A stretch of 64,000 nucleotides of DNA from Asterias amurensis. Lineage: Eukaryota; Echinodermata; Asteroidea; Forcipulatida; Asteriidae. Below the pieces are notes generated by a model, which searched no databases, had not been told where the DNA came from, and worked only from the letters and a program-made list of their open reading frames with translations. The stretch lies in NCBI RefSeq assembly GCF_032118995.1, contig NC_092666.1, positions 1,178,001 through 1,242,000 of the forward strand, given 5' to 3'. This document shows positions 680 to 61,955 of this stretch, piece by piece (the stretch's first letter is position 1; every line of letters starts with the position of its first letter). A program made the position numbers and the translations under genes.

Positions 680-729
680 GGCATGCCAGCAGCCTATTGC
701 ACAAAATGCTAGTATTAATCCTATCTTAA

Positions 730-33567: not shown

Positions 33568-33616
<49 letters not shown>

Positions 33617-36649: not shown

Positions 36650-39600
36650 TTACTTCTCACCAAATAGCTCAACTCGCATGGCTGGGATGATGCCTAAACA
36701 GAAGGTAATGTCCAGAAGCTCCTGCGTTGTCCTGATGTTCGGATACTGGTGAAGGGCCCACTTGAGGTAAACCAGAAACCCGCTCCAGTCGACCTGCCCG
36801 TCCGCATCCATGTCGATAGCCTGTAGAGCTTGACGCGTTTCTGAACAGCGGTAGCAGGAGAAGTATGGTGCCATGAAGCCATTGTAGAAGGAATCAAATT
36901 CCAGCATGTCATCTCCCTGCACTTCGTCCTTCATGTCCCAGATGTCCCAAGTCCCGCGGATCTCCTTGATCAGGGTCTCAGCATTATTGTTGTGGAGTTC
37001 CATGCGCACGATGGAGTCCCTCATTCTTTTAGTGATTTTGCCACCAGACCGGTGGAATAACAACGAAAGCCCCACAACACTCATGTAGTCTTCCTTTCTG
37101 TAATGGAGAGGCATAAAGGAAGCTAGGGATTAATGTAAAATATGAATGTCAAGAGTAGTAAAATGCGACTATTGGAAAGACACAGCACACATACTGGACT
37201 CGATGCTTTGGTCATCTGGGTCTGGGTTTGAATCCAGGTCTCGCGTGTGTCCTTGCTGAGCAACTTGACGATTAAGGCTACTCTCGTCTTTTCAGAGCAG
37301 AAATTACTATTATATCTCATCCATGTGCCTTAGAATTAGGTATTTCCAGGCCTGATACTTCACGAAGGCAACAGAAGCGATTGCCTCCATGCCCCTGGTC
37401 ATAGCCTTAGTGCCCTTGAAATTCTCCTGTAGAAATGTACAATTTTGTCATAGGGTGCCCCTTACCAAGGTGAAAATGCCTTAGTGCCCGTGCCCTTTCT
37501 AAAACGGAGCATATAAATTATAGGCCCGTATTTCTAAATTTTAAGCCGATTGGGTCTTTCTAAGTCGTATAAATTCTTTCTGCTCTGGGCTAACTGGCCC
37601 TTCCTATGAATAAGAAATATTTTCTGCTCTCAACTGACGTAAAATGGAACAAGGATCAAGAGCAATGTATATTCAATGGGAGACTTTGGGACGCTAGGTG
37701 GCAGCAGACTTACCAGGTAAATTTCTATTGTTTACGTAGTTCCGAGCATGCACACATGACCGAGAACAATGGATTTTACCTGGTAAGTCTGCTGCCGCCA
37801 AGCGTCCCAAAAGTCTCCCATTGCAACTTGAAACAAGTCTAGCTTTTACCTGCTGGTGTTTAGATCTCCCAGCATGACCTCTTTCATCTTATGCGCTATT
37901 TCAATTGTAAACTGCTCGTGTTCTCCGAAGAGTTTGACCAGTCGCATCTGTATCATCTCAGCTGACGCCAGAGCTGTTATCCTCAGCGGTGCCTCCTCCC
38001 CAAAGAAGTCCGCCAGGTCGAAATTCTCCTTGGCCAGATTGTAGACAAAGTCCAGAGACCTCTCACCGAACACTGGCTGCTTCAGATGGGGTCCTTCTCC
38101 AGTTGCGATCTTGGTCACATTAATGGCAGCCTTCCTCAGGTAGGTGCAGTTGAACTTCTTCAGGACTTTCTTGTTTCCCAGGCGGATTAGGTTCATCATG
38201 GTCACGCAAGTGGATGCGTTGCCCAGGGCGGCGCCCTCGGTGCAGATACTGCCCCACGTGCCGTCACAGCCATTCATTAAACTCTGTCAATGTAACCAGA
38301 GTGTTAAACAAAATCTTAATGACCGGTATGTTTATTTACATTTTGGGGGTATGTTAGCCCGAGCATTTGACATCACCTTTCGAGGCTCGTTATTGGTGCA
38401 AGATTCCAGCCTCTAGAACCTGACGGTTTTCCCGCCAGAATGTGCCTTTGATCTAGAAGTTATGTGTAAAAATTGGTTGTATCAATCCAATGAAACCATT
38501 TAGTTTGTAAGACTAGTGGCAGACACGTCTTAATAATGATTTTGCATAAAGATTGGGGCCCAGTTAACACAAAACCCGTCTTACCTCTAGTTGAGCAGCG
38601 TCAGCGTATCCGTACTTCTCATGCACGTGCACCAGCAGTTTCCCGGGCCACTTATGCATATTCATGATATGCCGGATATACTTTGACCATTCACCACACT
38701 CCTCCGGAAGGCAGGACCCCTTGGCCTCTTCAAATAACACTCCGAACGGTCGGATGTCTTCAGGCAGTTTGGCCAGGTACTCTACCAGCTTGAACACCCT
38801 GATTGGGTGGGTGGGCATGACATCTGTCATGTCCCTCAGGTTGATCAGCACCTTGGCGTCCTTGTTCAGGTTCTTCTTGACCCAGCGGATCCACTTCTTG
38901 ATAAGTGAGCACATGTCATCCATGCTGAACTTGGTGAAGTCGTACACTTCATCACTTAAGTCCACCTCCAGGATGGTGTTCCACAGTCCAAAGCTCTTGA
39001 TCTTCCTCATTCCGACGGGAACTGTCTCTTTGTCTGGTAAGCGGTTCTTTGTATCTAAAACAAAAACAAAACGTAATTTTATTGACATCATTTTCTAATT
39101 AGGTGTGGTGTTGAGTAGCTGGGAGGACCCGCCAAGGGAGCAAGCTCACAATATCAATGTAAGATGTATCAAGTAAGGTTTAATTCTAATAATTATTTTG
39201 AGTAATTACCAATAGTGTCCACTGCCTTCAAATGAACTGAACATTATTTGGTAATTGTTAGCACAGAAACTTACTTGGTCACGAGCAATTGAGAGCTGTT
39301 GATAGTATTTTAAATATTGTGAGAAACGGCTTCCTTTGAAGTAACCTAGTTTTTAGTAAAAAAAATAATCTCTCACTTAAATATTTGAAATGAATTCGAG
39401 ACCTCAGCTGAGGTCTAGAATTCAAGCATCTGGAAGCACACAACTTGGGCGACAAGAGTGTGGACTGTTTTTCGTCCATTAATCTCTCGTAGCTTCGACG
39501 ACCAATTGAGCTCAAATTTTCAAATCTTATTTGATGCCTAGGTTGAGGTACACCAAGTGAGAAGACTGGCCTTTGATGATTATAAAAGTTGTCCAGTGCC

Positions 39601-42407
39601 TCTAAATGAGCTGTTTTCTTGGTATGATTTGAATCTACAGTCCTGTGATTGCAAGTCGTATAGCACTCTTACCACTGGACCACGCTGACGTAATCCCACC
39701 ATTACTACGCCAGCTTTAGTGTTCTCGTTTGCAGCATTGACGCATTAAATGGGGGGGGGGGGGGTCTCGGGATTTTTGTTACTTAGTTGAGAACAAAAAA
39801 CAGACAGGGAAAAAACACAGCAATTCTGGGCTCGAATTCTGCGCTTACGATCACGATTATCTGCTTACGTGCAAGCGCCAAATTCCTGCGCTAGCCTTGT
39901 GAAGCGTAAGTGCCTATAATGTAACGTGGAGTACGAACGCGCAGAAGCCAAACTTCGCCGCTAACCCGTGAAATACGCTTGCCGTAAGCACAGAATTCAC
40001 TGCTTCCGTGAGCGCCGATTCTGTGCTAACGGTAAGCAGAGCCATGAAATTGGGACCTGTTCAGTTATTATTCAAACCAGGTAGAATGTTTTGTTCCCTT
40101 TCTCTGGACAACCCCCCGACTACGTGTCTCATTTTGTGAAGGAGCATTAATTTTTATTCGCAAATTTAACAGTGCGAAACTTTCACAGTTCGTTGAATTT
40201 CTTCAAAGCAAGGTTAAAAAACATGTGGTATGACATGTACCGATGCTTGAATACCAGCTGCCTTTTGTCTGGGTTACGACAGCAGCTTTTGGCCTCCTGT
40301 ACAAGTATTGTATCTGTAACTTTAAAGGCTGTATATTGTATATATGTCAGTTGAACATTTTTTAAGTTGAAGTTGAGCTTTGGCTAATACAGTGTGGTTA
40401 GAAAATTCTGCACTCCTATTTTTATTGTATGTTTGCGTGCAGACTTGTTTTGTATGGTACTAATCTAAAGGCCTCGTTGTTTATTTGACAAGATCGTATT
40501 TTTGTGAATGTACATAGCTAGTTTTAATTCTAATCATTCCAATCAACAATTTGTCAGATTATATTAAGTAAGACAGTGTGTGCCTGCTAGCTTAATCTGA
40601 ATCAACTTGACATGTAAATGGTGCCAGCTAATCGTGAAAATGTGTGTCAGAATACCCTTTCTAATGTATGCTGCTTAGTTTGCAGGAGCAGATCTACTAA
40701 TGAATAATATGTTTGTTTAAGTTTACGGGGCAGATCCACTATTTCTCCCCAAAGGTTGTGAACTCTTGCTATTATGCTACTGTTGTAACTTTGTTTGAGA
40801 ATAGAAGTGCAGTGGTCAATGCCTTCACTTTCCTTTGTACTTGTGGTCACACAGGAGGGTGTGAATATATTGTTGTGCATTGACGGATGAAGCTACTTTG
40901 TATGGAGGTTATTGAATGCAAGATATTTGGGAGTGGCAGTAGTCTCACATACACCGCGTTTACACTAGACCCTCCTATATACAAGGATCCAAGGATGACC
41001 AGATCCCGAAAGCGAGATCAACCATTTTTTGTGCCGCGTTCACACTTGAGTACGATCTCACATTGATCTCGCATAGTTAAACGGAAGTTCAGTTCAGCTG
41101 ACGGCTAAAGGTTCCCTGTGCGAGGTCATTGATTGTGCGCGCGGATGTTCCCTGAAATAACCGGACTCGACACAAAACTGACCAAACTTACAATAACTTC
41201 CCTATGTTATACTGTATAAAATATCTTGAAAAATAATTTGGAATGCTAAAACATATGCTTACATTAGATGATGATCCAAAAAAGATCGGTACTGAACATT
41301 CTGGAGGACGCAAAGCGTGTGAGTTATGAACCCACAATCGCTGTGATGTTGGTTACCAGTATCTTACGAATTATGGGGTCGGGGACAGTTCACGATAACA
41401 CATGCACAATGTATACAATCCTCATGTACATGACACCATGGAGGAAGATATACACAGCGTTGACGGGATGTGATCAGTTTAAGTTGCAGGATCTGACCTC
41501 GATCTGCGTCACTTGATTTTTGATCGCCTTTGCGGGATCTCATCTCCCTCTGATCTCGCAATGAAGGGAGGACGAAAAGGAGGATCTGATCCTGATCCTG
41601 TATTCGAACGCACCGGGGACAGACCGGGGTCGACCCAGGGATGCTAATCTAACACACCCATAGGTTATTGATGAAAAAGGAACATGGAATTTTGAGAGAC
41701 GGAAATAGAGAGAATTTGAGTGGGTATCTGACCAGTGTCGCGCTTGAATGACAACCATAGGCCTACTATCGGTGAAGTACCCCTTTCCATTGTGTGAGCT
41801 TCAAGGTTACCTTTTGTGTATTTTTAATGCTGAAACCTGTTGTCAATTGTATTTGATTAGGTTGCCTAATATGATTTTGTTGTATCTATTACTGCCATTT
41901 CAAATGTTGTGAATGTTTGATTAGATCAAATTTATGTACAATTTTGGTTTATGAGGTTATTTACCAACTCTTGTTAAAATTTTCTGTTTTACAATGGAGA
42001 TGATTTTTGAAAGTAATGCATAATGTTGCACGGTCGTTATCTGCAGTAGGCTATGAAGTGGTATACACAAGGTACTTACGTTCTGTTATCTCTGAACACG
42101 CAAATAGTCCGTTGCGGTCTTCTCCTTTCTCCACAAGTTGCTGAACAAAGACCTCATCTCCACTGGTCTTGTGGGCGAAGACTGCTACAATGATGTTAGT
42201 GAAACCACATCGCTTCACTTCATCATAAATCTGCCACTTGTTCTCCAGAGTGTGGCCCCTGAGTTGACAAACGGTGCTCTCACGGATTGAGTTGTCCAGA
42301 ACGAAGAGATCAAGATCGCGGAGAACCTGGAGCTTCGCCAGGTCTTTCTTGACGTCCTTATCGTACTTCTCGGCCAGATCCTGCATGCTGGTGAAAAGTT
42401 GCCCCAT
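36650..42407 (-). CDS. DRE-TIM metallolyase-like protein with C-terminal EF-hands, copy A
   Basis: Putative metal-dependent C-C lyase/aldolase; substrate unknown. Four exons on the minus strand, 42407-42080, 39054-38585, 38283-37850 and 37097-36650, with consistent phases, give 559 residues. N-terminal barrel: D38-N-S-I-R-E43 fits the DRE motif of the HMG-CoA lyase/LeuA superfamily; H252-V-H254 followed by E-K-Y-G fits the H-x-H metal site; G-N at 287-288 in GAALGNAS fits the conserved loop. The C-terminal part from about 412 carries an EF-hand pair. Compared with copies B and C this copy has C instead of G at 47, V instead of S at 76 and HKTSGDE for HMTRVDD, and its calcium loop (506-517) ends in Gly instead of Glu. 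The C terminus (ITFCLGIIP, VELFGEK) also differs. It may be diverging or decaying. Start: ATGG in good context, shared with B. Confidence 0.85.
37345..37510. repeat. Dispersed ttgcctcc...gtgccc repeat in copy A intron 3
   Basis: Reads cctgatacttcacgaaggca, cattgcctcc-like words, tgcccttgaaattctcctgt and gaaaatgcctta. The same order is at 25095-25265. Confidence 0.7.
37674..37823. mobile_element. 150-bp inverted-repeat element in copy A intron 3
   Basis: About 50-bp arms: caatgggagactttgggacg on the left, with gcagcagacttaccaggtaa, are mirrored on the right with a few mismatches, around a loop of about 50 bp. It ends 27 bp from the donor of exon 3 (37849). Copies B and C lack it. Confidence 0.85.
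39231..39605. mobile_element. TTAA MITE, family 1 (copy 4), with extra inverted end
   Basis: The interior ggtcacgagcaattgagagc, gagaaacggcttcctttg and caattgagctcaaattttca is typical. Just upstream, 39196-39230 (gagtaattaccaatagtgtc) is an inverted copy of the left end, so two copies or a rearranged copy meet here. It is in intron 1 of copy A. Confidence 0.75.
39633..39705 (-). mobile_element. tRNA-like sequence, antisense
   Basis: On the minus strand ggtccagtggtaagagtgct resembles an A-box arm and actgtagattcaaatc a B-box arm, with an anticodon-like stem cgact/acagg between them that pairs poorly. A tRNA-derived repeat rather than a functional tRNA. Confidence 0.45.
40960..41665. mobile_element. 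Probable element with gatctca words and a MITE end
   Basis: The left side (ccgcgtttacactagaccct, ggatccaaggatgaccagat) and right side (gggaggacgaaaaggaggat, ctgatcctgat) share mirrored words, and agatctcgca-type words recur. It ends at 41605-41665 with aacgcaccggggac and ggggtcgacccaggga, a GGTGCGTTCG MITE end. Boundaries are uncertain. Confidence 0.4.
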
Positions 42408-42707
42408 GATTTCGGGAACCTACACGGCTTGCTGGTATAGGCGTTACTGCTTATGCATACTTTGTCGCCTGACTTCAACCTTTTATTGCAATGTAGAATA
42501 TCTGACCTACTTTTGGCACGTAGACGCGCTTACCCAGTATTGTTGATAAATTGCTTGGCTGCAGTGGCAGAACGTATTTTTCATTCTGGTGTTGCTGATG
42601 GTGACAACATGAATACAATGTCGTTTTTGTAAAGAGGTTCGGCAATAGACACAATTGGAGACTTGGTTTCAAGTCTGAGGCTGCGGTTATTTCCTCTAGA
42701 GTTATAA

Positions 42708-42941
42708 ACTAGAAAGCACAGGAGCTGTATTTGAGCAAATACGGGTATCTCTGCCCAACTAACCGGAAGGGAAATGTTTGTTAAAAACGCCTTGAACACA
42801 GACTCCGTACGTAAAGCCCTTTCATATGATGTATAGATTGTCAAAATAGCTTTTGTGGTTGAGGACCTAGGAACTGATGAATAATGACGACTTGAGAAGA
42901 GACTAACTACCCGGAAGGGAAATATTTGTTAAAAATGCCTT
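42708..42941. repeat. 234-bp direct repeat, first copy
   Basis: Nearly identical to 44009-44242 (aactagaaagcacaggagct ... ggaagggaaatatttgttaa). Offset is 1301 bp. The interval between the copies holds the 5S-derived element. Inside each copy ccggaagggaaat.tttgtta occurs twice. Confidence 0.9.
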
Positions 42942-43169
42942 ACACGTACTATAAACGAAGCTGTTTATAAAAAAGGAAGTAAAAAACAAAATAATAACTA
43001 CACAAATGCATAGCTGTTTCGTAAAAAAAAAATGAAATTTCTCAACTGAGTTTGAAATTGTTGTGTGTGCAAAGCAATTTGCCCAATGTGGCAGAAACAA
43101 AATTTAAAAACGGAATATACCATGTTAAAGGTGAAAAGGTGCAAAACTGAAAAAATCATAAACAACATA

Positions 43170-43980
43170 TGATGACGCCATCATACCGTCATTTCACAAT
43201 TCACGACAACTTGCCAATATCTAACAATATACAAAGTTTCAACAAAATCGCAGCATTACTTCGACAATTATACGACTTCAAAAAGTGCACCTTTAATACC
43301 GCGTCATGTGACCCCCGATGACGTCATTGATCTAAAACTTCACACATATGATGCCTGCCTGACAGTAAACGTATGTCTAAAATATAAAGTGATTACAAAA
43401 AACTTCACCACAGACTTCAAAAAGTCCATTTTGAAGAGTTTTCAACCTGCCGCTAGAGGGCGCTGTTGTATTTTGTGACGTCATTGATATTTTTGTTTAA
43501 CTGCCGACCCTTCCCAGGCATTAACATCGTTGAAAGCAACTTCATAACTTGTGCCATTTTTTAATTAAAGGGCACTTCCCGTTTCGACCGGAAGTAGAGG
43601 TCATGTGAGGTCACGCACACACAACAAAATGAAGACCTAATTTATCCCTCCTCAATCCCGCAAACAGATCCCTACGGTCTCTTATGACTGATTTGTTTAT
43701 AGATTTTCAAACATTTAACACACAACACCTTTAAGATGACGTCACGTGACTTGTGATGATGTCATAATGACATACTTGTTTTGTAATGATCATTGCACCA
43801 ATACCTTTCATCACTGAAGGTTTCATTGCAATACACCGATCCTAAGTAAGGAACATTGCAAATCAGCACTAAAATATATTACTGGCCAAGCGGGTCTCCC
43901 ATCCAAGTACTGACCGGGCCCGATGATGCTTAACTTCAGTGATCAGTAAACGGCCTAACGTTCAAAACGGGCTGACTGAC
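43170..43980 (-). mobile_element. Interspersed element with 5S rRNA-like head
   Basis: Read on the minus strand it starts with a 5S-like block near 43975 and runs into AT-rich repeat sequence with many gtgacgtca-type words (for example 43738-43770 and 43310-43335). It is bounded on the plus side by a (GAA)n run at 43981-44005. A 5S-headed SINE (SINE3-like) is possible; the body is not recognised. Confidence 0.5.
43878..43972 (-). pseudogene. 5S rRNA-derived sequence
   Basis: The minus strand reads gaagttaagcatcatcgggc and ggtcagtacttggatgggag then acc, closely matching the 5S rRNA region around AAGCTAAGCAGGGTCGGGCC and TAGTACTTGGATGGGAGACC. This part includes the internal promoter. The 5' portion is diverged and the 3' end (gcttggccagtaat) does not close the helix, so it is not a working 5S gene. 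Confidence 0.8.
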
Positions 43981-44008
43981 GAAGAAGAAGAAGAAGAAGA
44001 AGAAGATG

Positions 44009-44242
44009 AACTAGAAAGCACAGGAGCTGTATTTGAGCAAATACGGGTATCTCTACCCAACTAACGGAAGGGAAATGTTTGTTAAAAACACCTTGAACAC
44101 AGACTCCGTACGTAAAGCCCTTTCATATGATGTATAGATTGTCAAAATAGCTTTTGTGGTTGAGGACCTAGGAACTGATGAATAATGACGACTTGAGAAG
44201 AAACTAACTAACCGGAAGGGAAATATTTGTTAAAAACGCCTT
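44009..44242. repeat. 234-bp direct repeat, second copy
   Basis: Second copy of 42708-42941, with few differences (ctctacccaactaacggaag for ctctgcccaactaaccggaag-type sequence). It follows the (GAA)n run directly. Confidence 0.9.
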
Positions 44243-45110: not shown

Positions 45111-45214
45111 GAAGGAGGAGAAGGAGAAGGAGAAGGAGAAGGAGAAGGAGAAGGAGAAGGAGAAGGAGAAGGAGAAGGAGAAGGAGAAGGAGAAGGAGAA
45201 GGAGAAGGAGAAGG
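45111..45214. repeat. (GGAGAA)n microsatellite
   Basis: About 17 hexamer units of aaggag. It is preceded by acggcctgactgacgaagg, which also precedes the (GAA)n run at 43981 (acgggctgactgacgaag), so both microsatellites may be tails of the same element family. Confidence 0.95.
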
Positions 45215-45280
45215 ACAATATCTCTGCCGTTTCACGGGCAGAGACAACTTTAATTGTTCAGTATAAACCTTTTACACGTT

Positions 45281-46908: not shown

Positions 46909-49900
46909 ATGGGGCAACTTTTCACCACCATGCAGGATCTGGCCGAGAAGTACGATAAGGACATCAAGAAAGACCTGGCGAAGCTCCAGGTTCTCCGCGA
47001 TCTTGATCTCTTCGTTCTGGACAACTCAATCCGTGAGAGCACCGTTGGCCAGCTCAGGGGCCACACCCTGGAGAACAAGTGGCAGATTTATGATGAAGTT
47101 AAGCGATGTGGTTTCACTAACATCATTGTAGCATCATTCGCACATATGACCCGGGTAGATGACGTCTTCATCCAGCAACTCATAGCGAAAGGAGAAGACC
47201 GCAACGGTCTGTTTGCGTTTTCAGAGATAACAGAACGTAAGTTCTTCTCGACCATTCATTAATAAATTGCTTCAATATTCAGGGGGAAACGTTGTGGGTA
47301 ACAATAAATACCTTATTGAGAACTGCTTTACGCTTAAAATAACGTGGTAATCTAATAAGCAATATACTGCGCATCTGAGCACTTTGCCTCGTCAGATTGA
47401 CGACTTTGTTTCCTTCATAATGGACCGAGTGGACCAGAATAGTTTTGAATTTGTTCAAGACGCAATTCAAGTTGCTGTTTCTTTAACCGTGTATACGGTT
47501 TCAAACATCAACCAGAATTGCCTGTTGCAAATTGTTTTCCACCTGAACGATTTGGTATGCAAAGTGTGCGAGTTGCCCGACATTATGTCTAAACAGCGCG
47601 CTAAAGAGATGACTACAATGCATTTTATAAAACACCTATTCGGGGTCACCGCACAAACTCCACGATGTCCGCCCAGGTGGCGGCCATTTATGAGTGTCAA
47701 CAATGCATTGACGACTGACATATTTTGTATACTTTAAAGGAACACGTTGCCTTTGATCGGTCGAGTTGGTCTTTGAAAAGCATTTAATTGTAACCGTTTG
47801 ATAAAATGCACATGGGTAGAGAGATGTTGTAAAAGTAGAATACAATGATCCACACAAACATGCCTCGAAATTGCACGGGTTTCCTTCGACCTTGTCGGCT
47901 AACACGGTCGGCCATTTATGGGAGTCATATTTTTGACTCCCATAAATGGCCGACCGTATTAGTTCGCACAGTAAAGAGCAAACCACGCAATTTCAAGGCA
48001 AATTTGTGTGGATCATTGTATTCTACTTTTAAAACATCGTTCCAACCTTTTGCATTTTAAAACAAACGGTAACAAACCCTTTTTATATGACCCACTCGTC
48101 CGATCCAAGGCAACGTGTTCCTTTAAAGTTGTTGCGTATGTATGTACACGATACGAGCATACTATTTTGTTACTGACGTGGCGGCATAAAGTTGCAACAG
48201 GGTGCAACCTAGTCACCAACGAGATTGGAGGTCGCAACAATAATTATAGGGTGCGGTCGATTAGATTTCTTGGGTCGACCCCGGTCTGCCCCGGTGCGTT
48301 CGAATAGCTTTGACGTCATTCCAGGGGCTCACCCGGGTCAGCCCCCCGTGCCCTGCTTATGGAGTGGGTCACTTGGGGGCAGTGGCGTAACTAGACATTT
48401 TCATTTGGTGGGGCAAGTGGGGGCAAAGATTAAATTTGGGGGGGGGGCCAAAGAAGTGCAAGATTATTATTAAATGTGTTAACTAATATATAGTTGATAC
48501 ACACCAATGCAGTTCTAAAACAGTCTACATAGTCAGCAGGTAACAAAAGATTGCGAAAACAACATCTTAGAGAACTTGTCATTTTGTATAAGATATATTT
48601 TTGACTGTATAAAAGGATTAAATTACCAACTGTGGTCACCAAGTACCAACTTAGAGTTGTACACGGCATTCTCAAATAGGCTTTGTGGGTGTGTAAATAC
48701 CCAAAACATAATAATATTAGGCCAAGTAAAAATAGAAAAATAGAAATTGTTTAGCGTCCCCGCCCGCTTCCTTTTTACAGGACACCTCTTTTTTTTCTAA
48801 AAATTTTTTTATGCAATTTTTTTTTGTTTTTGTTTTGAAAAAGGGTTATTTTAAATGATCTCAGCAAAAAAAAAAAATCTGAATGTCTTGTCTGAATGCC
48901 TTGACCAAACTGTTTCATTAATGTTTTGTGTATTTCAGCAGCAGAAAAAACAGTTGATATTTGACATTCATGGCGGCCATCTTGAAATAAAAAATAAAAA
49001 GCCCCTCCTCCTTCCTTTTTTTTTGAGAAACCCAGACACTAAACATGTTTCTTTTTTTTACTCGGCCTTATTGTAACAAGTGTAAGCCATCAAAAAAAAA
49101 AATACAGGATCGAAATTGTGGGTGTTTAATAATCACATTTTAGTTATGAAACGGATATTTAAAATAGGCCTACCTCTCAATTGCACCGCTTGCTTCAAAG
49201 GAGAAGAAATGGTCTAAGCAACCTTTTTCGCTGGCCATTGTTTGCTGTTGTAAATTTCTCTGTAGTGCATCTGACCATGGAGGTAGAAATTTTTTCCTCC
49301 ATGATCTGACTTTGTGTTTACGGAGCTATTGGTCTGCATTCAGACCACCACGTATTTAACAGAACTTTGTCACATCCTGCACTCTCTGTAACCGCAAAAC
49401 CACAACAAACATTTACCGCCAATACGATCGCGCGCGCGTTTCCACGCATTTTTCATGTTATAGTCCACGGAGGGCCTACTGATATGAATACAAGTTTTCC
49501 TTTTTACGACAGCATTTTATGCAGCCTTAAACGATTTATATATAAGCCCTATGTATAAGATCTCTGATTTCATATGGGGGGGGGGGGCAAGAGTGGGGGG
49601 GGGGGCAAGGGTTCTGAGCGGGGGGGGGGGGGGGGGGGGCGCCGGCCCCCCTGCCCCCCCCCCCCCCTCTGGTTACGCCACTGCTTGGGGGTGACCCAAG
49701 GTGCATGACGTGTACCACGAGAGGGCGAGTGTGATCGTTCGATTAACTCTTGTCAGGGGCTCATCCGAGTGAGCACCGCGGGGTCGACCCAGGGAAGCTT
49801 ATCGCACGCACCGATTATAGGCCTACATATCACACAATATCTTTTTGTTCCTCGAACGGCCTAAGTGTAAACTTTTGTATTTACAGATACAAAGAACCGC

Positions 49901-52493
49901 TTACCAGACAAAGAGACAGTTCCCGTCGGAATGACAAAGCTCAAGAGCCTAGGACTGTGGAACACCATCCTGGAGGTGGACCTCAGTGATGGAGTGTATG
50001 ACTTCACCAAGTTCACTATGGATGACATGTGCTCACTTATCAAGAAGTGGATCCGCTGGGTCAAGAAGAACCTGAACAAGGACGCCAAGGTGCTGATCAA
50101 CCTGAGGGACATAACAGATGTCATGCCCACCCACCCAATCAGGGTGTTCAAGCTGGTAGAGTACCTGGCCAAACTGCCTGAAGACATCCGACCGTTCGGA
50201 GTGATATTTGAAGAGGCCAAGGGGTCCTGTCTTCCGGAGGAGTGTGGTGAATGGGCGAAGTATATCCGGCATATCATGAATATGCATAAGTGGCCCGGGA
50301 AACTGCTGGTGCACGTGCATGAGAAGTACGGATATGCTGACGCAGCTCAACTAGAGGTGAGACTAGGAGCAAGTTCGAGTGCGCACATTTAGTCCACCAG
50401 TGGTCGACCACAGACTAGCAACGCACATGCGCAGTGACGTACTCACCCGAACGAGTCTAGTCAACCTTCCACCTTTTCGCTTTAGTAACACTGGTTCCCC
50501 TCTGCGCTTAACATAGGTTAGAATGGAATATGCTGTTGGGACCAGTGAAGAAACCATGGGCTCGAGGCTGGTTCCAAATGGTCGACCACATAGTCAACCA
50601 ATGGTCGACCAGCCTGGGTTCGAGTCAAAATGGTCAACCTTTAGTTAACCATTGTGCACACTCGAACTTGCTCATGTTTTGTGTAAACCGGGCCCAAATT
50701 GTTATGCCAAGCATTAAGACTGACAAAGGTCTTACAAACCCAACTTTTCTTTCATTGCTTGTTTATACAAAATTGACTCACCAGCACGAGAAGGTCGACA
50801 GCTAGTGTACAATACACACACAAAGCTAGGAGTGCGGCATACTGAACATGCACATTATGGCAGGGAAACTGACAGGTTCTAAAGGATGGAATCTGGCATT
50901 CATACATAACAGGCCTCGAAATGCGACTTCAGATGCACAGGCTAGGTTTTGTGTTGACCTTGTTAATTTGACTGTTTAAGTTAGTTTGTTCACACAAAAT
51001 ACTTAGCCCCAAAATGCAATAAACTCACTGGGGAATAATTTGGTTTGATTATTGGCCACTGATAGTGATATCTCTGAATTATCATTATGACATAGTTTAC
51101 TTGCGGGTGAAACAACCACAACCTTTTATTACGTTGGCAGAGCTTAATGAATGGCTGTGATGGCACGTGGGGTAGTATATGTATCGAGGGCGCCGCCCTG
51201 GGCAACGCATCCACTTGCGTGACCATGATGAACCTAATCCGCCTGGGAAATAAGAAAGTCCTGAAGAAGTTCAACTGCACCTACCTGAGGAAGGCTGCCA
51301 TAAATGTGACCAAGATCACAACTGGAGAAGGACCCCATCTGAAGCAGCCAGTGTACGGCGATAGGTCTCTGGACGTTGTCTTCAATCTGGCCAAGGAGGA
51401 TTTCGACCTGGCGGACTTCTTTGGTGTGGAGGCACCGCAGAGGATAACACCTCTGGCATCGGATGAGATGATACAGATGCGACTGGTCACACTCTTCGGA
51501 GAAGACGAGCAGTTTACAATTGAGAGAGCGAATAAGATGAAAGAGGTCATGCTCGAAGATCTTAAGAGCAACCGGTAAGCTAGGCTTGGTTCAAGCTGAC
51601 ATTAAATATACAATACTCGTTTCATTTCAGGTCGGAGCATAACAGAATCCTAAGACCTGAAATTAGATAGACAGCTCATGGCAGAAGGCACTTATGACAC
51701 CTAGAAAGAAAGAAAAAAAAAGTCGGCTTATCACGCACAGTGAGGTACAAGTCCTTTCTGCTCTGTGCTAAGCAAATCATTTTGGTCAAGTGTCTTGCTA
51801 GATGTCACGGTCTGGATTCAGTCCAGACACTGGTGACCAGGACTGTTCAGTGTGCTTGAGCTGACAGGATAAAACATTTTGGTGAATATCTTGCTCAGGG
51901 ACACAGGTCAAGGCCTGGATTCGGCCAAGACACTGGTGACCGGGACTTTGGTGGCATCCAAAGGTGGCATTCTACTTAAAAACTCTTCTGCATATACATG
52001 CATTTGTTTAGTCTTAGCTTCCTATCACCTGTTTTTTTATGACAGAAAGGAAGAATACATGAGTGTTGTGGGGGTTTCGGTGTTATTTGACCGGTCTGGC
52101 GGAAAAATCACCGAGACAATGAGGGACGCTATCGAGCAGATGGAGCTCAACAGTAATCATGCCGAGACCCTGATCAAGGACATCCGCGGGACTTGGGACA
52201 TCTGGGACATGAAGGACGAAGTGCAGGGAGATGACATGCTGGAATTTGATTCCTTCTACAATGGCTTCATGGCACCATACTTCTCCTGCTACCGCTGTTC
52301 AGAAACGCGTCAAGCTCTACAGGCTATCGACATGGATGCGGACGGGCAGGTCGACTGGAGTGAGTTTCTGGTTTACCTCAAGTGGGCCCTTCACCAGTAT
52401 CCGAACATCGGGACCACACAGGAGCTTCTGGACACCACGTTCCGTAAAGGTATCATCCCAGCCATGCGAGATGAGATACTTCGTAAAAGGTAA
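46909..52493 (+). CDS. DRE-TIM metallolyase-like protein with C-terminal EF-hands, copy B
   Basis: Four exons, 46909-47236, 49887-50356, 51141-51574 and 52046-52493, same lengths and phases as copy A, 559 residues, all open. Barrel motifs: L-D38-N-S-I-R-E43-S-T-V-G-Q (DRE), N-I-I-V-A-S-F (71-77, like the S-F strand of HMG-CoA lyase), H252-V-H254-E-K-Y-G, then the loop C-I-E-G-A-A-L-G-N288-A-S. The order and spacing fit HMG-CoA lyase/LeuA-type metallolyases, in which the H-x-H pair, the first Asp and the loop Asn bind a divalent metal. C-terminal: a degenerate EF-hand (about 468-480, DDMLEFDSF) and a canonical loop DMDADGQVDWSE at 506-517, so calcium binding is likely. No signal peptide or membrane segment is seen; probably cytosolic. 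Substrate and pathway unknown. Introns 1 and 2 hold nested MITEs. This copy has the most intact motif set. Confidence 0.88.
47734..48126. mobile_element. Palindromic TTAA MITE (GGAACACGTTGCC ends)
   Basis: TTAA is present at both ends (47734, 48123), followed by aggaacacgttgcctttgat and its complement (ccgatccaaggcaacgtgtt). Almost the whole element folds back: gtagaatacaatgatccaca and tcggccatttatgggagtca are mirrored across a centre near 47932. It lies in intron 1 of copy B. It has no coding capacity. Confidence 0.92.
48249..49811. mobile_element. GGTGCGTTCG MITE (copy 2), split by a hAT-like element
   Basis: The left part 48249-48371 (gggtgcggtcgattag, tgggtcgaccccggtc) and right part 49692-49811 (gagggcgagtgtgatcgttc, ggggtcgacccagggaagct) together match the whole element at 19098-19336. 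The insertion lies between them, after gtgggtcacttgggg. Confidence 0.92.
48380..49683. mobile_element. hAT-like non-autonomous DNA transposon
   Basis: Ends cagtggcgtaactaga and tctggttacgccactg are inverted repeats of hAT type. An exact 8-bp target duplication, cttggggg, flanks it (48372-48379 and 49684-49691). The 1304-bp interior is AT-rich with long G/C homopolymers near the right end (49576-49667) and no transposase frame. The exact duplication implies a fairly young insertion. Confidence 0.93.
50367..50673. mobile_element. MITE with GAGCAAGTTCGAGTG ends in copy B intron 2
   Basis: Ends gagcaagttcgagtgcgcac and gtgcacactcgaacttgctc are inverted with one mismatch in 20. The interior repeats ggtcgacca several times. 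It starts ten bases after the splice donor of exon 2. Copies A and C lack it at the equivalent place, where the donor runs straight into gggttttgtgt. Confidence 0.88.
51790..51960. repeat. Duplicated intron-3 segment shared with copy C
   Basis: Twice within itself it carries tcacggtctggattcagtcc and tcaaggcctggattcggcc-type words followed by agacactggtgaccaggact. The same pair, inverted, is in intron 3 of copy C (about 57685-57860). Copy A intron 3 lacks it. Confidence 0.75.
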
Positions 52494-54469: not shown

Positions 54470-56063
54470 CACAGTAAAAAACAAAACAATTTCCAACATT
54501 TTCCTGTAAAATACTTTTACATAATTGGTATGTCATTCTGTTTACAAAATTTCAGTCAAAACCTAATAACGAAACTTTAGTATTTACGTGTTCTTCCATT
54601 CTTTCCAAATGCAGTCATGTTGTATCATTTATTTTTTATTCCTTTGTACTGAGTGTTTGAGAAAATTCAAAAAGTTTAGATATTTTACAATTGTTGTAAT
54701 TGAAATGTACTGTTTTCCTGTAATTATGACTACACATTCGTTTTTAGGTAAGCAGCAAATGTAAAAAAAATATTTTACAGTTTTTTTTGTAATCGAAATG
54801 TAATGTTTTTCTGTAATTATAACTACAATTTTAACATGATAAATGACGGTCCAATACCGGCCCAACGTGTAAACAATAATGCATAAGATTGTTTAGTGTG
54901 TCTAACTAATACATTGTTAATTACTTAAATCTACTATTAAGTACACAAAATTACACACATACAACACATGTGGTTTCATGTACTACTAACAGATACAAAA
55001 ACAGCCCACAGCCTTATACCCCCGTTCACACATAGGCGCCGCTTCTACTAAGATGGAAAAGTGACCGAGAGCGTGACCAATCGCGGGCCAAACGTGTGAA
55101 GATCTCAATGGGCGTGGTTTTGTCGGGGTGGGATCTCCCCGGTCTGGAAGCTGCACTCTCTCCCCACGCTTATTTTGCGTACGCGGGTCGTAGTCAACGT
55201 ACAATAAGCGGGCAACATCGTGGGAACGTCATTATCGTACCAGCAGCGTGTAGCATCGTGGTGTGTAATAGTCAGTATTGGTAGTGACAGCGAGTCAGAG
55301 ACACTTTTTACGTACAAGCAGTAAAGTTGGGCAGAGTCAAACACTTACCAAATTGCTAGATTTTGACGGCGATTTTGATACCCCGACTCTGAGATTGGGG
55401 TGATTGGTGTGACCTTCGTAAGGTCGCTGTGTGAACGGGGTATAAAGCACAACCAATATACTGTGTAACATTCACAGAGTGATATTATGCAGTTCAACTT
55501 TGGATGAAGTTTAACCCATGGTTGTGATATTAATGATAAATTTGTCGATATTATTGCATAATTGCAATCAAAATATATAAACAAATATTATTGCACTTCA
55601 AATATTATTATAATCAGCAATTTTCTTCTATAATTTATACACAGAAAATCCCAACAAATTACATTTCTTTGGCAGATTTCATAAATTATACAATACTATA
55701 GCCCATATGTGGAACAGCTTTGACACCCTCCCTTCAAACTTGCATATCTGTTTTTCACCAAGCTGTTATACAAGATTCTGTTAATATACAAAACATCAAG
55801 TAAAGTTACCTAAAACTTACTGAGAAACAATTCTCGTGTATTTTTGCAAACAAATTTACAATGATTTCTGTAAATCTACGGAAATCGTCCATTTTTACGT
55901 GTATAAACACTTTTTAAATGTAAATTTATGAAATGGAAAAAACAGTAGTGATTTTTTACTATTTTTGTTTGTCATTTTGCAGAAAATATTATGCCAGTAA
56001 AAATAAAACACAATGGTCTTTGTGTTTTTTCTGCCGTCATTTTATTTTTATTTTTTTACAGTG
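54470..56063. mobile_element. CACTA/EnSpm-like non-autonomous element, 1.6 kb
   Basis: Ends cacagtaaaaaaca and tttttttacagtg are inverted (CACWGTAAAAAA type). Subterminal words recur: tgtaattgaaatgtactgtt near 54695 and tgtaatcgaaatgtaatgtt near 54790, each followed by ctgtaattat. No transposase frame and no clear target duplication, so the family name is tentative. It carries a further element at 55015-55444. Confidence 0.6.
55015..55444. mobile_element. MITE with TATACCCCCGTTCACAC ends
   Basis: The left tatacccccgttcacacata and right gctgtgtgaacggggtata are inverted. The interior is GC-richer than its host element. It is the innermost of three nested elements. Confidence 0.85.
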
Positions 56064-56379
56064 TACACCAAGAAGAGAGAATACCGGACCTCGAAAATTA
56101 CCAATTGTGTCCAACGTCTTTAAGTTTGGGGACAAACTTGCTGAACTTCTTATTCCGTCTTATGCTTCCTTAATTATTATTTTCATGAGTTAATAAAATG
56201 TATCAATACAAACTTTTATCAGCAAAACATTGACGTATAAGCAGATTTTAAAAGTCACCTGGAAATAATTGTTTTATTTGTTCAAACATAAAAGTATAGG
56301 TTTAGTAACAGTAAAGCAATTTTTTTTAGTAATTGTTTGTCACGATTTATATGTCTAAAAAATAGTTCAAGTTGTTTGG

Positions 56380-56720
56380 GGGTTGACTCCGCCTACCCTT
56401 TTTGTGACATCAATCGAGGCAGACTTTGCCTTGATGCATAGAGTAAACACACGTACAAGTACATGCAAGTCCAAGTGATTGAGTTTGTACTTTTCGAAAA
56501 AGTTGTTTTCTTTCATTTGTATTGCTGCTGGATGCAGCAAAACAACTAAAGATGGGGTTAGACTGCATGGCTGGTCAGACTCACAAAAGCAATAGTGGCT
56601 AGTGGTCCGGTCCGACGTCTTTGTTCAGCACCGTGCAGCATTTTCTCTTCAAATATCGCGCCTCGATTGACGTCACGAACAACACCCTCTCGGGTCGGGG
56701 CCTCTCTCTTAAATTTGTAA
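56380..56720. repeat. Unclassified repeat-like block after the nest
   Basis: Contains actccgcctaccctttttgt, aggcagactttgccttgatg (a small hairpin), gttgttttctttcatttgta and caccctctcgggtcgggg. It looks like an interspersed repeat by style but no second copy is in the window. Confidence 0.3.
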
Positions 56721-57127
56721 AAAAGATAAGAACTAATTTTTTAGAACCTTAGTTAACTGTTTATTCACATTCCACTTATCAAAACAAATATATTTGTAAC
56801 AAAGGGTTTATTTTGACCAAATACCACTTCCAGGTGACTTTAAGTAACTTCGTATGATGTTTGTTTTGTAATACTGTTTGCCTCTTGAGTTCTTATACGG
56901 GTTTATCTCAAGGTATTCACAAAATTAGACCTATTTATTAACCTAGCTCAATGTGACGGTATTAGCTCTGCAGCCAACAACACCCTAACACTCCTTCTCT
57001 AACAATAAAGTATCGTGGGTGAAAAAACTTCAGATTTGTATCAGTCTCTACATGGGAAGACACGGAGACAAGTTTGTGAATCCATTGGGCGGGGTTAGAC
57101 TTCTGATTTGTACCAGTCCTTTTATTG

Positions 57128-60100
57128 TTACTTCTCACGAAGTATCTCATCTCGCATGGCAGGGATGATACCTTTACGGAACGCGGTGTCCAGAAGCTCC
57201 TGCGTTGTCTTCAAGTTCGGATACTCATTCAGGGCCCACTTGAGGTAAACCAGAAACTCGCTCCAGTCGACCTGCCCGTCCGCATCCATGTCGATAGCCT
57301 GTAGAGCTTGACGCGTTTCTGAACAGCGGTAGCAGGAGAAGTATGGTGCCATGAAGCCATTGTAGAAGGAATCAAATTCCAGCATGTCATCTCCCTGCAC
57401 TTCGTCCTTCATGTCCCAGATGTCCCAAGTCCCGCGGATCTCCTTGATCAGGGTCTCGGCATGATTACTGTTGAGCTCCATCTGCTCGATAGCGTCCCTC
57501 ATTGTCTCGGTGATTTTTCCACCAGACCGGTCGAATAACACCGAAAGCCCCACAACACTCATGTATTCTTCCTTTCTGTAATAGAAAACCACATGAAGTT
57601 AAGAATTGAAACAAAATAAACAAAAATGCAGAAGATTTAAGTAGAATGTGACCATTGGATGGACGTTCGAGCACACTGATCTCAAAGTCCTGGTCACCAT
57701 GCAGGGTCTGGGCCAAATCCAGGCCTTGACCTGTGTCCCTGAGCAAGACATTCGCCAACATTGCTTCTCCTGTCAGCTCAAGCACACTGAATTCTACGTG
57801 CTGGTCATCAGATGCTGGGCTGAATCCAGACCGTGACCTGTGTCCTATAGCAAGAAACTTGACCACAATGAATTGCTTCCCTGTCAGCTAAGAGCAGAAA
57901 AAACTTGAACCTCAATATGCGTGATTGCCATAAGGCCTTTCTGGTCTGAGCCGACTTTTTTGTTTTCTAGGAGTTATGAGTGCCTTCTGCCCTGAGCAGT
58001 CTAGCTCATTCGAGGTCTTATGATTCGTTTATACTCTCAACCGAACTGAACTGGAACGAGTATAGTATACTTAATGGCAGCTTGAACCAAGCCTAGCTTA
58101 CCGGTTGCTCTTAAGATCTTCCAGCATGACCTCTTTCATCTTATGCGCTATTTCGGTTGTAAACTGCTCGTCTTCTCCGAAGAGTTTGACCAGTCGCATC
58201 TGTATCATCTCATCCGATGCCAGGGGTGTTATCCTCAGCGGTGCCTCCTCCCCAAAGAAGTCCGCCAGGTCGAAATCCTCCTTGGCCAGATTGAAGACAA
58301 CGTCCAGAGACCTCTCGCCGTACACTGGCTGCTTCAGATGGGGTCCTTCTCCAGTTGTGATCTTGGTCACATTAATGGCAGCCTTCCTCAGGTAGGTGCA
58401 GTTGTACTTCTTCAGGACTTTCTTGTTTCCCTGACGGATTAGGTTCATCATGGTCACGCAAGTGGAGGCGTTGCCCAGGGCGGCGCCCTCGATACAGATA
58501 CTACCCCACGTGCCGTCACAGCCATTCATTAAGCTCTGCCAACGTAATCACAGATTATGAATTTTTATAAACTCATCTAACATCCCCCTTATTTAAAAAA
58601 AAAAAAATGTTTGTATGCAATGTGCCAGACACACAAGTCCTGATGGCCACTTCAAGGTATGGACTACAATCAACTATTTCTTTTCCAGGGGTCGTTGCTA
58701 TCTACTCCTGATCTGAACAAGGGTAACCACTTTACAGTCTATACGGATGTTGGCTTGGGCTGGCAAAGCAGAAAGCACTACCTCCCTAACTTTTCGAAGC
58801 AATCACGATTATTAATAATATACAGCACTTATAGAGCGCACAGTATCAGAAAAAGAAAAATGCCATTCAAGGGCGCTGGTTCCCAAAATAAATTTGTTTG
58901 AAGAGGTGTGTTTTGAGATTAAGTGTTTTGCTGAAAGACACAAGTGTCACGGCCGAGACTCGAACCCACACTCTGCTGATTAAACACCAAAGTAAGAAAC
59001 CGCTAGGGCATGACATATGTTATGATAATTTAAGACATGATCAGTGGTCCTTAGGTAAAAGTTAAAAAAAGGGTAAACACAAAACCCGTCTCACCTCTAG
59101 TTGAGCAGCGTCAGCGTATCCGTACTTCTCATGAACGTGCACCAGCAGTTTCCCGGGCCACTTATGCATATTCATGATATGCCGGATATACTTTGCCCAT
59201 TCACCACACTCCTCCGGAAGGCAGGACCCCTTGGCCTCTTCAAATATCACTCCGAACGGTCGGATGTCTTCAGGCAGTTTGGCCAGGTACTCTACCAGCT
59301 TGAACACCCTGATTGGGTTGGTGGGCATGACATCTGTCATGTCCCTCAGGTTGATCAATACCTTGGCGTCCTTGTTCAGGTTCTTCTGGACCCATTCGAT
59401 CCACTTCTTGATGAGTGAGCACATGTCATCCATAGTGAACTTGGTGAAGTCATACACTCCATCACTGAGGTCCACCTCCAGGATGGTGTTCCACAGTCGT
59501 AGGCTCTTGAGCTTCCTCATTGCAATGGGAACCGTCTCTGTGTCTGGAATGCGGTTCTTCTTATCTAAAAATACAAAAGTTTACATGTGTCAAATATTTT
59601 TTAAGTGATTGACTTGAGAAGCCTGAAGATACCCCGCAAATCAAAGGATTATTTGTTGGTGTACTATTAAGTTTGATTGACGCTCATCTTTAAAGTGACA
59701 CAGAAGACACACATGTAGTTTCTAAGATGGCGGTCACCTTGTGACTGTCAAGGGCGGCATACAATATAAGTGATAATCAAATTGTCTATCATTACAGTGG
59801 GGTCCTTGTTGATTTACTTGGACGTAACTCCACAGCGTCTGTTGAACGTAGTTCGGTTGCAACATTGACGCACTATCGGTAACCAATACAAATATCCCGA
59901 CCGGGAACCTTAACTAACCGTTGACCTACCCAACCAGGGACCTTTACCCAACCGGAAACCTTAACTAGATGTGGACCTACCCAATCGGGGACCTTTACCC
60001 AACCGGGAACCTTAACTAACTGTGGACCTACCCAACCGGGGACCTTAACCCAACAGGGAACATTTACCAAACCGACCTACCCGACCGGGGAGCTTCACCC

Positions 60101-61955
60101 AACCGGGAACCTTAACTAACCGTGGACCTACCCGATCGGGGATCTTTTATCCAACCGGGAACCTTAACTAACCGTGAACCTACCCGATCGGGGATCTTTA
60201 CCCAACCGGGAACCTTAATAACTGTGGACCTACCCACCGGGGACCTTTACCCAACCGGGAACCTTAACTGTGGATCTGTCCGAACGGCGAGCTTTACCGA
60301 AGCAGGAACCTTAACTAACCGTGGACCTACCCAAACGGTGACCTTTACCCAACCGGGAACCTTAACTAACTGTGGACCAGACTGGGGATCTTTTAATCAA
60401 CCGGGAACCTTAACTAACCGTGGACCAGACTGGGGATCTTTTAACCAACCGGGAACCTTAACTAACCGTGGACCTACCCGATCGGGGATCTTTACCCAAC
60501 CGGGAACCTAAATAACTGTGGACCTACCCACCGGGGACCTTTACCCAACCGGGAACCTTAACTGTGGACCTGTCCGAACGGCGAGCTTTACCGAAGCAGG
60601 AACCTTAACTAACCGTGGACCTACCCAAACGGTGACCTTTACCCAACCGGGAACCAACCGTGGACCAGACTGGGGATCTTTTAACCAACCGGGAACCTTA
60701 ACTAACCGTGGACCTACCCTACCTGGGACCTTTACCCAACCGGAAACCTTAATTAACCCTGTACCTACCCAATTGGGGACCTTTACCCAAACGGAACTAT
60801 GGACCTACCCGAACGGTAACATTTACCCAACAAGGAACCTTAACTAACCGGGAACCTTAACTAACTAGGAGCGGCGCACCCGGGGGGGGGGGGGGCTCGG
60901 GGGCTTGAGCACCCCCTCCCCCACCCTAAGAAGGTCCCCCAAAAAGAACAAAGAAAAAAAGGAAAAAAGAGAAAGAGGGAAGGAAAGAAGAAGAAAGGAA
61001 AAAATAATAATGGGGGAGGGGAGAACTGGGGAAAGGAAAAAAGAGCCGAGGGAGAAAAGTCCCAAATGCGTGTGCAGTTTTTGGTTTTTATTTCCGGTGG
61101 AAGTATTTTCTTTGCTTCCTTTGCCATTCGCATTTTCCCCCTGCCAAAATACCTCTTTTATCTGGGATATTCGATAACGCGAGGTGCGAGGTGAAAGATT
61201 TTGGACACATCTAATGCAATGATCATACGACAACTCCCTTGTAAATGTGTAAACTTGCAACAATAATATTTCAAGCATTTGAAACCCGTTGTCCAGGATA
61301 GAATATATGTCACGTTGCTCTTGGTCGCTCCGGCATTCAATGGTTTTCTAGTCTACACTTAAATTTGAGAAACGCCGGATAGTAATGTCTTTTTACCCGC
61401 GATGTTTATACTGAATATGCAAACGAAACCAAATACCAACCGACCCGATCGAATGCTGATCACCACGCGTTGCGTCTTGTCCACATTCATTTTACCCCAA
61501 AACGCCAGAAAGCTCAGAGCTATACAGGGGGCAAAGCCCCCTGGACCCCCACACCGGGGCTTCGCCCCTGGACCGTCCGCGACATAAGGTGATGTCTCAT
61601 TAAAAAAACGTGGAAGGTACTTACGTTCTGTTATCTCGGAAAACGCGAAGAGATTGTTGCGGTCCTCTCCTTTCTCTACGAGTTGCTGGATGAAGACGTC
61701 ATCTACCCTGGTCATATGGGAGAATGATGCTACGATGATGTTAGTGAAGCCACATCGCCTTACTTCATCATAAATCTGCCACTTGCTCTCCAGGGTGTGG
61801 CCCCTGAGCTGCCCAACGGTGCTCTCACGGATTGAGTTGTCCAGAACGAACAGATCAAGATCTCGGAGAACCTGGAGCTTCGACAGGTCTTTCTTGATGT
61901 CCTTTTCATACTCCTCGGCCAGATCCTGCATGGTTGTGATGCAAACTTGCTCCAT
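57128..61955 (-). CDS. DRE-TIM metallolyase-like protein with C-terminal EF-hands, copy C
   Basis: Four minus-strand exons, 61955-61625, 59564-59095, 58535-58102 and 57575-57128, 560 residues, all open. Exon 1 is one codon longer than in A and B and begins MEQVCITTMQD instead of MGQLFTTMQD; the following LDNSIREST, NIIVASF, LLVHVHEKYG and GAALGNAS motifs are the same as in copy B. The C-terminal EF-hand loop DMDADGQVDWSE is canonical. Exons 3 and 4 are closest to copy B, whereas exon 1 is the outlier of the three. Intron 1 contains a 51-bp minisatellite and intron 2 a SINE. Likely a cytosolic metal-dependent lyase or aldolase with calcium sensing; the substrate cannot be told. The ATGG start (caggaccatgg-like context) is at the same alignment position as in the others. 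Confidence 0.88.
57685..57860. repeat. Duplicated intron-3 segment shared with copy B
   Basis: Inverted version of 51790-51960: gggtctgggccaaatccagg, ccttgacctgtgtccctgag and gggctgaatccagaccgtga. It marks the intron as part of the B-C duplication. Confidence 0.75.
58622..59025 (-). mobile_element. tRNA-headed SINE, second body type, antisense
   Basis: The left part (ggccacttcaaggtatggac, tctactcctgatctgaacaa) matches 27220-27300. The right part (gtgtcacggccgagactcga then acccacactctgctgatt) is the inverted tRNA head. Between them 58808-58910 is an insertion-like stretch including tatacagcacttatagagcg. It lies in intron 2 of copy C. Confidence 0.7.
59897..60862. repeat. Minisatellite, about 51-bp unit, roughly 19 units
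   Basis: Imperfect units of aaccttaactaaccgtggac, ctacccaaccgggga and cctttacccaaccggg. The unit is a multiple of three, so one plus-strand frame stays open for over 100 codons with a 17-residue repeat. It is in intron 1 of copy C, antisense to that gene. Confidence 0.93.
60866..61060. repeat. G-run and polypurine tract
   Basis: A run of about 13 G near 60883-60895 is followed, after cccctcccccacc, by a 100-bp purine-only-like stretch of gaaagaggaaag words. Frames here are compositional artefacts. Confidence 0.8.
61525..61575. repeat. Pair of GC-rich hairpins
   Basis: Two adjacent hairpins: agggggcaaagccccct and ccggggcttcgccccctgg-like gggcttcgcccc. They lie 50 bp past the donor of copy C exon 1 and are compact GC stem-loops of unknown origin. 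Confidence 0.7.

Follow-up and report, generated by a model that had tools for sequence, protein, structure and literature searches.

The window analysed here, a stretch of 64,000 nucleotides of Asterias amurensis DNA, contains three clustered genes (copies A, B and C) that are copies of ilborin, a marine-invertebrate protein. As proposed in the first-pass annotation, which had called three open genes of about 559 residues, each has four exons: GT-AG splice sites are found at all nine introns (9/9), and the spliced products, with all frames open, measure 559 residues for copies A and B and 560 for copy C. At the protein level the copies are 89% (A-B), 86% (A-C) and 93% (B-C) identical; the proteins of copies A and B correspond letter for letter to P0002 and P0001, respectively. 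Position 36650 is the stop of copy A and position 61955 the ATG of copy C. Residue numbers are those of copies A and B, copy C being one higher. The exons listed below were assigned by splicing, the three motif entries by sequence and conservation.

42080..42407, minus strand: copy A exon 1, start of the barrel with the DNSIRE motif
38585..39054, minus strand: copy A exon 2, HVH included
37850..38283, minus strand: copy A exon 3, strand 8 plus the subdomain after the barrel
36650..37097, minus strand: copy A exon 4, EF-hand pair (with Gly in place of Glu at loop position 12)
46909..47236, plus strand: copy B exon 1
49887..50356, plus strand: copy B exon 2
51141..51574, plus strand: copy B exon 3
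52046..52493, plus strand: copy B exon 4, EF-hand module
61625..61955, minus strand: copy C exon 1
59095..59564, minus strand: copy C exon 2
58102..58535, minus strand: copy C exon 3
57128..57575, minus strand: copy C exon 4
47020..47037, plus strand: copy B codons D38-E43 (DNSIRE), with the putative substrate arginine R42 and putative first metal ligand E43
50312..50320, plus strand: copy B codons H252-V-H254, predicted metal-binding HxH (169/169)
52329..52364, plus strand: copy B codons D506-E517, canonical EF-hand calcium loop DMDADGQVDWSE

We infer the roles of R42 and E43 from relatives (PMC11532901) and from the ilborin paper (PMC8864356). In all three proteins the motifs follow each other in the order originally given, i.e. 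D38-NSI-R42-E43, H252-V-H254 and then EKYG, G283-AAL-G287-N288 and the EF-hand loop 506-517. Some details of that description hold for part of the family only: the A-S-F strand occurs in copies B and C and reads A-V-F in copy A; the EF-hand loop ends with DWSE in B and C and with DWSG in A; and the G-x-x-x-G-N loop, present in the copies, is not a conserved feature, N288 being a minority residue in the 169-row ilborin alignment (Asn in 32/169 rows, His in 129/169), from which 4 of 173 ilborin matches outside 480-640 aa had been left out. R183, D184, E218, E282, H252 and H254 are invariant in this alignment (169/169), Cys280 is kept in 148/169 and His332 in 144/169 rows, and the R-E pair is missing in eight (four gaps, four Cys-Gly). 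We found 693 homologous proteins at E ≤ 0.001, and the named ones among the matches listed include species that we take to be molluscs, annelids and nemerteans. When the three window copies are aligned with the best 120 of the 693, D38, R42, E43, E218, H252, H254 and E282 are kept in 123/123 proteins, position 288 is occupied by His (77), Asn (36), Gln (5), Ala (4) or Ser (1), and the columns of the EF-hand loop show D506 in 120, D508 in 114, D510 in 117 and E517 in 117 rows. Profile matches to both PF00682 and an EF-hand had been predicted. The HMGL-like model PF00682 reaches its cut-off of 29 bits in two of the three copies (C, E 5.2e-07, 29.8 bits; A, E 5.8e-07, 29.6 bits; B, E 3.5e-06, 27.1 bits), and every EF-hand profile model scores under its cut-off against the three copies. 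Among 56 aligned members, 44 match HMGL-like and 41 EF-hand_8 (E ≤ 0.01).

In the structure model, the DRE-TIM-type barrel spans residues ~30-330 and retains the metal-site residues; it is followed by a helical subdomain (~330-430) that superposes on the isopropylmalate/homocitrate synthase subdomain and, by sequence and model, by a lobe of two EF-hands (~447-531) in which the second loop alone is canonical. D38, H252/H254 and N288 are placed at strand ends (strands 1, 7 and 8), which is consistent with the clustering expected of them in the first-pass annotation. The defining features of the DRE-TIM superfamily are thus found, i.e. a (beta/alpha)8 barrel with R42 and E43 after strand 1 and H252/H254 on strand 7, and so is the helix-loop-helix with at least one canonical loop that defines the EF-hand superfamily; copy B exon 4, when folded alone, gives an EF-hand module (pLDDT 88). 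Structure comparison returned the anticipated match to a DRE-TIM barrel, with citramalate and homocitrate synthases as the closest folds, subdomain included, and HMGCL ranked lower. Profile matches, model and fold comparison together uphold the earlier proposal of such a barrel, with divalent-metal residues kept, joined to an EF-hand. The ligands at loop positions 1, 3, 5 and 12 are present in copies B and C, and copy A has Gly at position 12; judging from its sequence, copy A has probably lost the calcium site at loop 506-517.

We are practically certain of the ilborin identity and fold of the three copies. Their membership in the family is judged from architecture, the overlap in species and relatives in sponges, among them Halichondria P0100 (58%). 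Ilborin was described in Open Biology in 2022 (PMC8864356); the paper reports an aldolase-type TIM barrel and a C-terminal calcium-binding EF-hand with a conserved DxDxDG loop, orthologues of 560-610 aa, several paralogues per species, Halisarca dujardini as the source and starfish (Asterias rubens, Acanthaster planci) among further species. According to the same paper, ilborin keeps Arg-Glu and two His (residues 35, 36, 205 and 207, in a numbering that differs from that of the window copies), the sponge protein is cytoplasmic and counts among the major proteins of the flagellated cells of the larva, and a role in 'energy turnover' is proposed. The previous statement that no known member of these enzymes carries an EF-hand therefore falls. 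The window copies likewise have the barrel before the EF-hand, the conserved Arg-Glu and the two His; they differ in coming from another species and in their length of 559-560 aa, copies A and B thus lying one residue below the stated range. Copy A also differs in lacking the last EF-hand loop ligand, and the published text speaks of one EF-hand, whereas our model contains a pair. The window extends a known family with further members, the barrel plus EF-hand design being already published. Orpin, another echinoderm EF-hand protein, was considered and rejected: it is a different protein of 164 aa, and the accessible text of PMC9501386 does not mention a 'TIM barrel'.

New here are the absence of acetyl-CoA residues at the aligned places, the invariance of R183, D184, E218 and E282, and a bacterial sister family without EF-hand. 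With A1 as query, a profile search of the sequences of solved structures gave no match at 1e-6, and residues were therefore mapped by profile-profile alignment to 18 synthase rows of loci L009-L030, picked by motif (4 of 22 without a DTTLRDG-type motif were dropped). The Gln, strand-5 Glu and subdomain His of the Claisen subgroup, whose acetyl-CoA roles we take from PMC11532901, are absent at the aligned places in ilborins. The Gln of RDGxQ is Val in 160/169 ilborins (four gaps); the strand-5 Glu (18/18 synthase rows) aligns with Arg183, or with Ile185 when routed via the EF-less family, and no ilborin of the 169 has a Glu at positions 176-185; the two His of HKGGIH (18/18) align with a gap and Val346, in a subdomain whose profile alignment is weak. 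His332 and the invariant D184 are situated near the places of the missing synthase His and Glu. The NCBIfam synthase models reach 10.7-26.2 bits, whereas their cut-offs lie in the hundreds. Ilborins share fold, metal-site residues and helical subdomain with citramalate, homocitrate and isopropylmalate synthases, but their C-terminus is an EF-hand lobe, without a leucine-binding domain. With HMG-CoA lyase they share the barrel fold, the Arg and the HxH; they differ by a lower structural score, Glu instead of Asp as first metal ligand, and the extra subdomain and EF-hand. The catalytic Cys of HMG-CoA lyase is held in a GGCPYA-type loop (GGCPFA in L003), which is absent from ilborins; their loop from strand 8 to G287 is short, with Cys280 just before it, near but outside the equivalent loop. 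The acyl-CoA substrate suggested at first is therefore disfavoured, even with Cys280 close by. The residues listed are mutation targets, and they argue against the acetyl-CoA chemistry suggested by annotations.

The EF-less sister family (~430 aa; P0174-P0293, L006, L007, L040) has the barrel without EF-hand, and all named members in the list are bacterial, some called 'homocitrate synthase' and others 'beta/alpha barrel domain-containing protein'. It shares with ilborins the barrel and post-barrel subdomain (residues 6-431), Arg-Glu, HxH, Gly-His and 27% identity, and differs in its strand 5 (N-I-V-D-G-C-D vs N-x-R-D in ilborins) as well as in the missing EF-hand. A PAS-GGDEF protein adjoins three of four EF-less loci (GGDEF domain-scanned in all three), two of them from one bacterial family. 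At the fourth (L040, genome G694) the ORFs read within ~5.6 kb to the left and 6 kb to the right include no cyclase, which goes against the cyclase idea; the two neighbours domain-scanned there are a histidine kinase and a LysR regulator. The neighbour of a bacterial ilborin (P0121, locus L001) combines an AAA ATPase domain with two nucleotide-cyclase stretches and presumably resembles soluble adenylyl cyclase; P0122 and P0123, labelled bacterial in the tree, are presumed so from short contigs and nearness to P0121. L001 was the one locus out of 22 pattern matches in the genome-contig scan, and plasmid records and viral contigs yielded no relatives. In overlapping genome samples, bacterial relatives were found in 3/194 genomes of the order to which genome G001 belongs (G001 included; query P0121), in 23/398 of its phylum (G001 the sole strong match, the rest at E 7e-8 or weaker) and in 2/46, 1/2, 4/390 (G001 included) and 1/369 (G001 itself) of further samples.

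Our preferred reading, to which we assign a probability of about 0.5 as a whole, is that these ilborins combine metal-dependent catalysis with a calcium switch. Catalysis by the barrel is likely, and calcium control of copies B and C we consider reasonably probable. E43, H252 and H254, with N/H288 nearby, would hold a divalent metal, and metal and R42 would serve to bind a 2-oxo acid, or a substrate like it, and to stabilise an enolate. Given that the alignment shows no acetyl-CoA residues where the Claisen synthases have them and that R183, D184, E218 and E282 never vary among the 169 relatives, we place ilborins in a separate subgroup, in which a C-C bond beside a carbonyl would probably be made or broken, or a decarboxylation take place, without the usual CoA condensation. 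Isopropylmalate synthases carry a leucine-sensing domain, and the EF-hand lobe occupies its place; calcium at loop 506-517 would move the lobe relative to the subdomain, thereby switching the enzyme. A calcium-gated metallolyase, if true, would be unusual, and one genome with copy A (no last calcium ligand) and copy B (ligand present) makes the switch directly testable.

It is conceivable, though rather unlikely, that the barrel binds metal and perhaps a 2-oxo acid and does no chemistry, serving as a sensor or scaffold that integrates metabolite and calcium signals and perhaps touches a cyclic-nucleotide cyclase. The usual general-base residues are absent from the aligned places, bacterial relatives adjoin signalling cyclases (the L001 ilborin and three of four EF-less loci), and the abundance of the sponge protein in larval flagellated cells (PMC8864356) suits a structural or sensing role too; however, six residues at 169/169 (H252, H254, R183, D184, E218, E282) exceed the expectation for a dead barrel, and the neighbour count is small, with two GGDEF loci of one family and a fourth without cyclase. 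Quite unlikely, in our view, is a genuine Claisen-type synthase, resembling homocitrate, citramalate or isopropylmalate synthase, that would condense a 2-oxo acid with acetyl-CoA and be controlled by calcium. Nearest folds, the naming of some EF-less relatives and Glu as first metal ligand, as in homocitrate synthase (PMC8864356), point that way, and His332 and D184 might replace the missing His and Glu, but the Val at the Gln position, the lack of Glu at 176-185, the gap and Val346 at the His pair (in the weak subdomain alignment) and the low NCBIfam scores speak against it. An HMG-CoA lyase-like enzyme, in line with the wording of the first-pass annotation and near the published 'energy turnover' proposal (PMC8864356), is very improbable given the lower rank of HMGCL in the fold comparison and the short loop without the GGCPYA motif; the nearby Cys280 makes it marginally more probable. 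That the motifs arose by chance, or that the copies are decaying forms of some ordinary gene, can hardly explain the locus: copy A departs from 9 of 117 near-invariant columns (B from none, C from one), but the open frames, dN/dS of 0.25-0.37 and the 693 homologues refute this for copies B and C.

Beyond the proposed calcium-switched metal enzyme, we put forward as a speculative and rather unlikely idea that ilborins and the EF-less sister family form a DRE-TIM subgroup not yet described, having an active site of its own and non-Claisen 2-oxo acid chemistry. Signalling cyclases, either GGDEF or class III, would have been the partners of a bacterial ancestor. An EF-hand lobe replacing an amino-acid-sensing domain would have been gained in the animal form, giving a calcium-gated metabolite enzyme or sensor. 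The proposed active site in ilborins comprises R42, E43, R183, D184, E218, H252, H254, E282 and H/N288.

The three genes of the window are further ilborins, i.e. members of a family that has already been described. The novelty is small and open to test: it consists of an active-site fingerprint of its own, a bacterial sister family without EF-hand (EF-less), a broader spread among animals, and the loss of a calcium ligand in one of the three paralogues. Each gene is split into four exons by GT-AG introns, whose positions match between the copies, and encodes 559 (copy A, reverse strand), 559 (copy B, forward) or 560 residues (copy C, reverse). The first-pass annotation had placed this three-copy finding exactly, and its observation of three genes was confirmed; its motif details fail twice in copy A, where the strand reads A-V-F instead of A-S-F and the EF loop closes with Gly instead of Glu. 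The copy A and copy B proteins are identical to P0002 and P0001 respectively, both of which NCBI names 'uncharacterized protein [Asterias amurensis]'. The ilborin paper (PMC8864356) describes a sponge protein with four paralogues (569–586 aa, table 1) that joins an aldolase-type TIM barrel to an EF-hand, is remotely similar to homocitrate synthase and HMG-CoA lyase, conserves Arg, Glu and two His, and is proposed to take part in calcium-mediated control of energy metabolism. The range given there covers Porifera, Cnidaria, Ctenophora, one flatworm and Echinodermata (among Lophotrochozoa, Macrostomum only), plus one labyrinthulomycete match and two cyanobacterial relatives, placed as sister to animals. 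Nothing else in the literature searched mentions ilborin by name.

We aligned 169 ilborins (4 of 173 matches were left out by length). H252, H254, E218, E282, R183, D184 and G287 (A/B numbering) occur in 169/169 rows, and R42 and E43 in 161, the other eight being gapped (4) or Cys-Gly (4); position 288 is His in 129 rows, Asn in 32, Gln in 4, Ala in 3 and Ser in 1. The EF-less family (121 rows) keeps Arg in 120, Glu and both His in 121, and Gly then His in 121/121. For methylthioalkylmalate synthase, a Claisen-type relative, PMC11532901 gives Arg89, the metal ligands Asp90, His288 and His290, and His388 as base, with Glu227, Tyr399 and Gln93 also at work. Residues were mapped by profile alignment with 18 synthase rows; the direct ilborin–synthase alignment is of moderate strength (E 3.1e-11, positions 53-342), and remaining residues were placed in two steps via the EF-less family (the first at E 1.1e-48, the second at 2.6e-18). 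By the latter route the synthase Gln becomes Val46 in ilborins (160/169 rows, 4 gaps). In the direct alignment the strand-5 Glu, present in 18/18 synthase rows, lands on Arg183, and via the EF-less family it lands on Ile185; no Glu occurs at 176-185 in the 169 ilborin rows, where D184 is the sole invariant acid. The two His of synthase HKGGIH (18/18) correspond to a gap and Val346, and His332, near the mapped place and kept in 144/169 rows, could be a stand-in. Judging by this mapping, ilborins retain the half of the site that serves the metal and the oxo acid; the half for CoA cannot be made out. The first-pass reading, a calcium-tuned metallolyase acting on an acyl-CoA or keto acid, is supported only in part.

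Copy A is the diverging paralogue. Of 117 columns with conservation of 95% or more across 118 other relatives, copy A deviates at 9, copy B at none and copy C at one; dN/dS (Nei-Gojobori, 551 codons) is 0.33 for A-B, 0.37 for A-C and 0.25 for B-C. With Gly at the last EF-loop position, copy A has lost a calcium ligand. The longest stretch identical across the three copies, 179 bases of exon 4 (residues 457-516), suggests gene conversion among them; it stops right before the codon at which copy A differs. A long tandem array (window 59896-60794, 51-base unit, ~18 copies) lies within the first intron of copy C and can also be read as 147- and 294-base periods. Searching the whole assembly (491.5 Mb, 23 contigs) with the copy B protein gave 25 exon-level matches, 12 of them in the genes of the window, which spans G000:C19:1178001-1242000, the others being:
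C7, 17.64 Mb and 21.62 Mb: ilborin exon matches, 9 in all
C11, 16.94 Mb: ilborin exon matches, 4 at one place

A tree of 48 rows groups the three window copies in a single clade (support 100/100), next to a Patiria protein (90/98). Among the matches listed, further named ilborins come from Mya, Mytilus, Lineus, Tubulanus and Owenia, which are molluscs, nemerteans and annelids; the range therefore takes in these phyla. A contig filed as gammaproteobacterial (L001) encodes an ilborin (P0121; 54% identity, EF-hand match at E 0.00097), cut at residue 117 by the contig end. In the tree, P0121 and the probably bacterial P0122 and P0123 adjoin the sponge Halichondria (98/86), which suggests sponge–bacterium transfer of the gene. 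The rooting is unsure, since the outgroup sits on very long branches (3.8 and 3.1). Just downstream of the L001 ilborin lies a gene whose architecture resembles that of soluble adenylyl cyclase:
L001:1458-5531: 1357 aa, two nucleotide-cyclase stretches and an AAA_16 domain

Neighbourhoods of EF-less genes were read in four genomes (G110, G601, G030 and G694; the first two from one bacterial family). By domain scan, a PAS-GGDEF gene lies directly downstream in three of them (G110, G601, G030):
L006:2868-3809: PAS-GGDEF gene
L007:414-1352, reverse strand: PAS-GGDEF gene
L035:7590-8630: PAS-GGDEF gene
None was seen beside the barrel gene of the fourth (L040, G694). We regard the cyclase association as a lead, not proof. 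In L006 and L035 a gene for a MerR-type regulator lies ahead of the barrel gene.

Other features of the window are:
719-1243, forward strand: 174 aa open stretch that, on reading, resembles part of a retrotransposon reverse transcriptase
22361-22505, reverse strand: SNORA36 snoRNA match (48 bits; gathering score 43)
27445-27532, reverse strand: borderline tRNA match (29.8 bits against 29)
33291-33679 and 45116-45215: TTTG and AGGAGA microsatellites, the source of the long low-complexity frames listed among the ORFs
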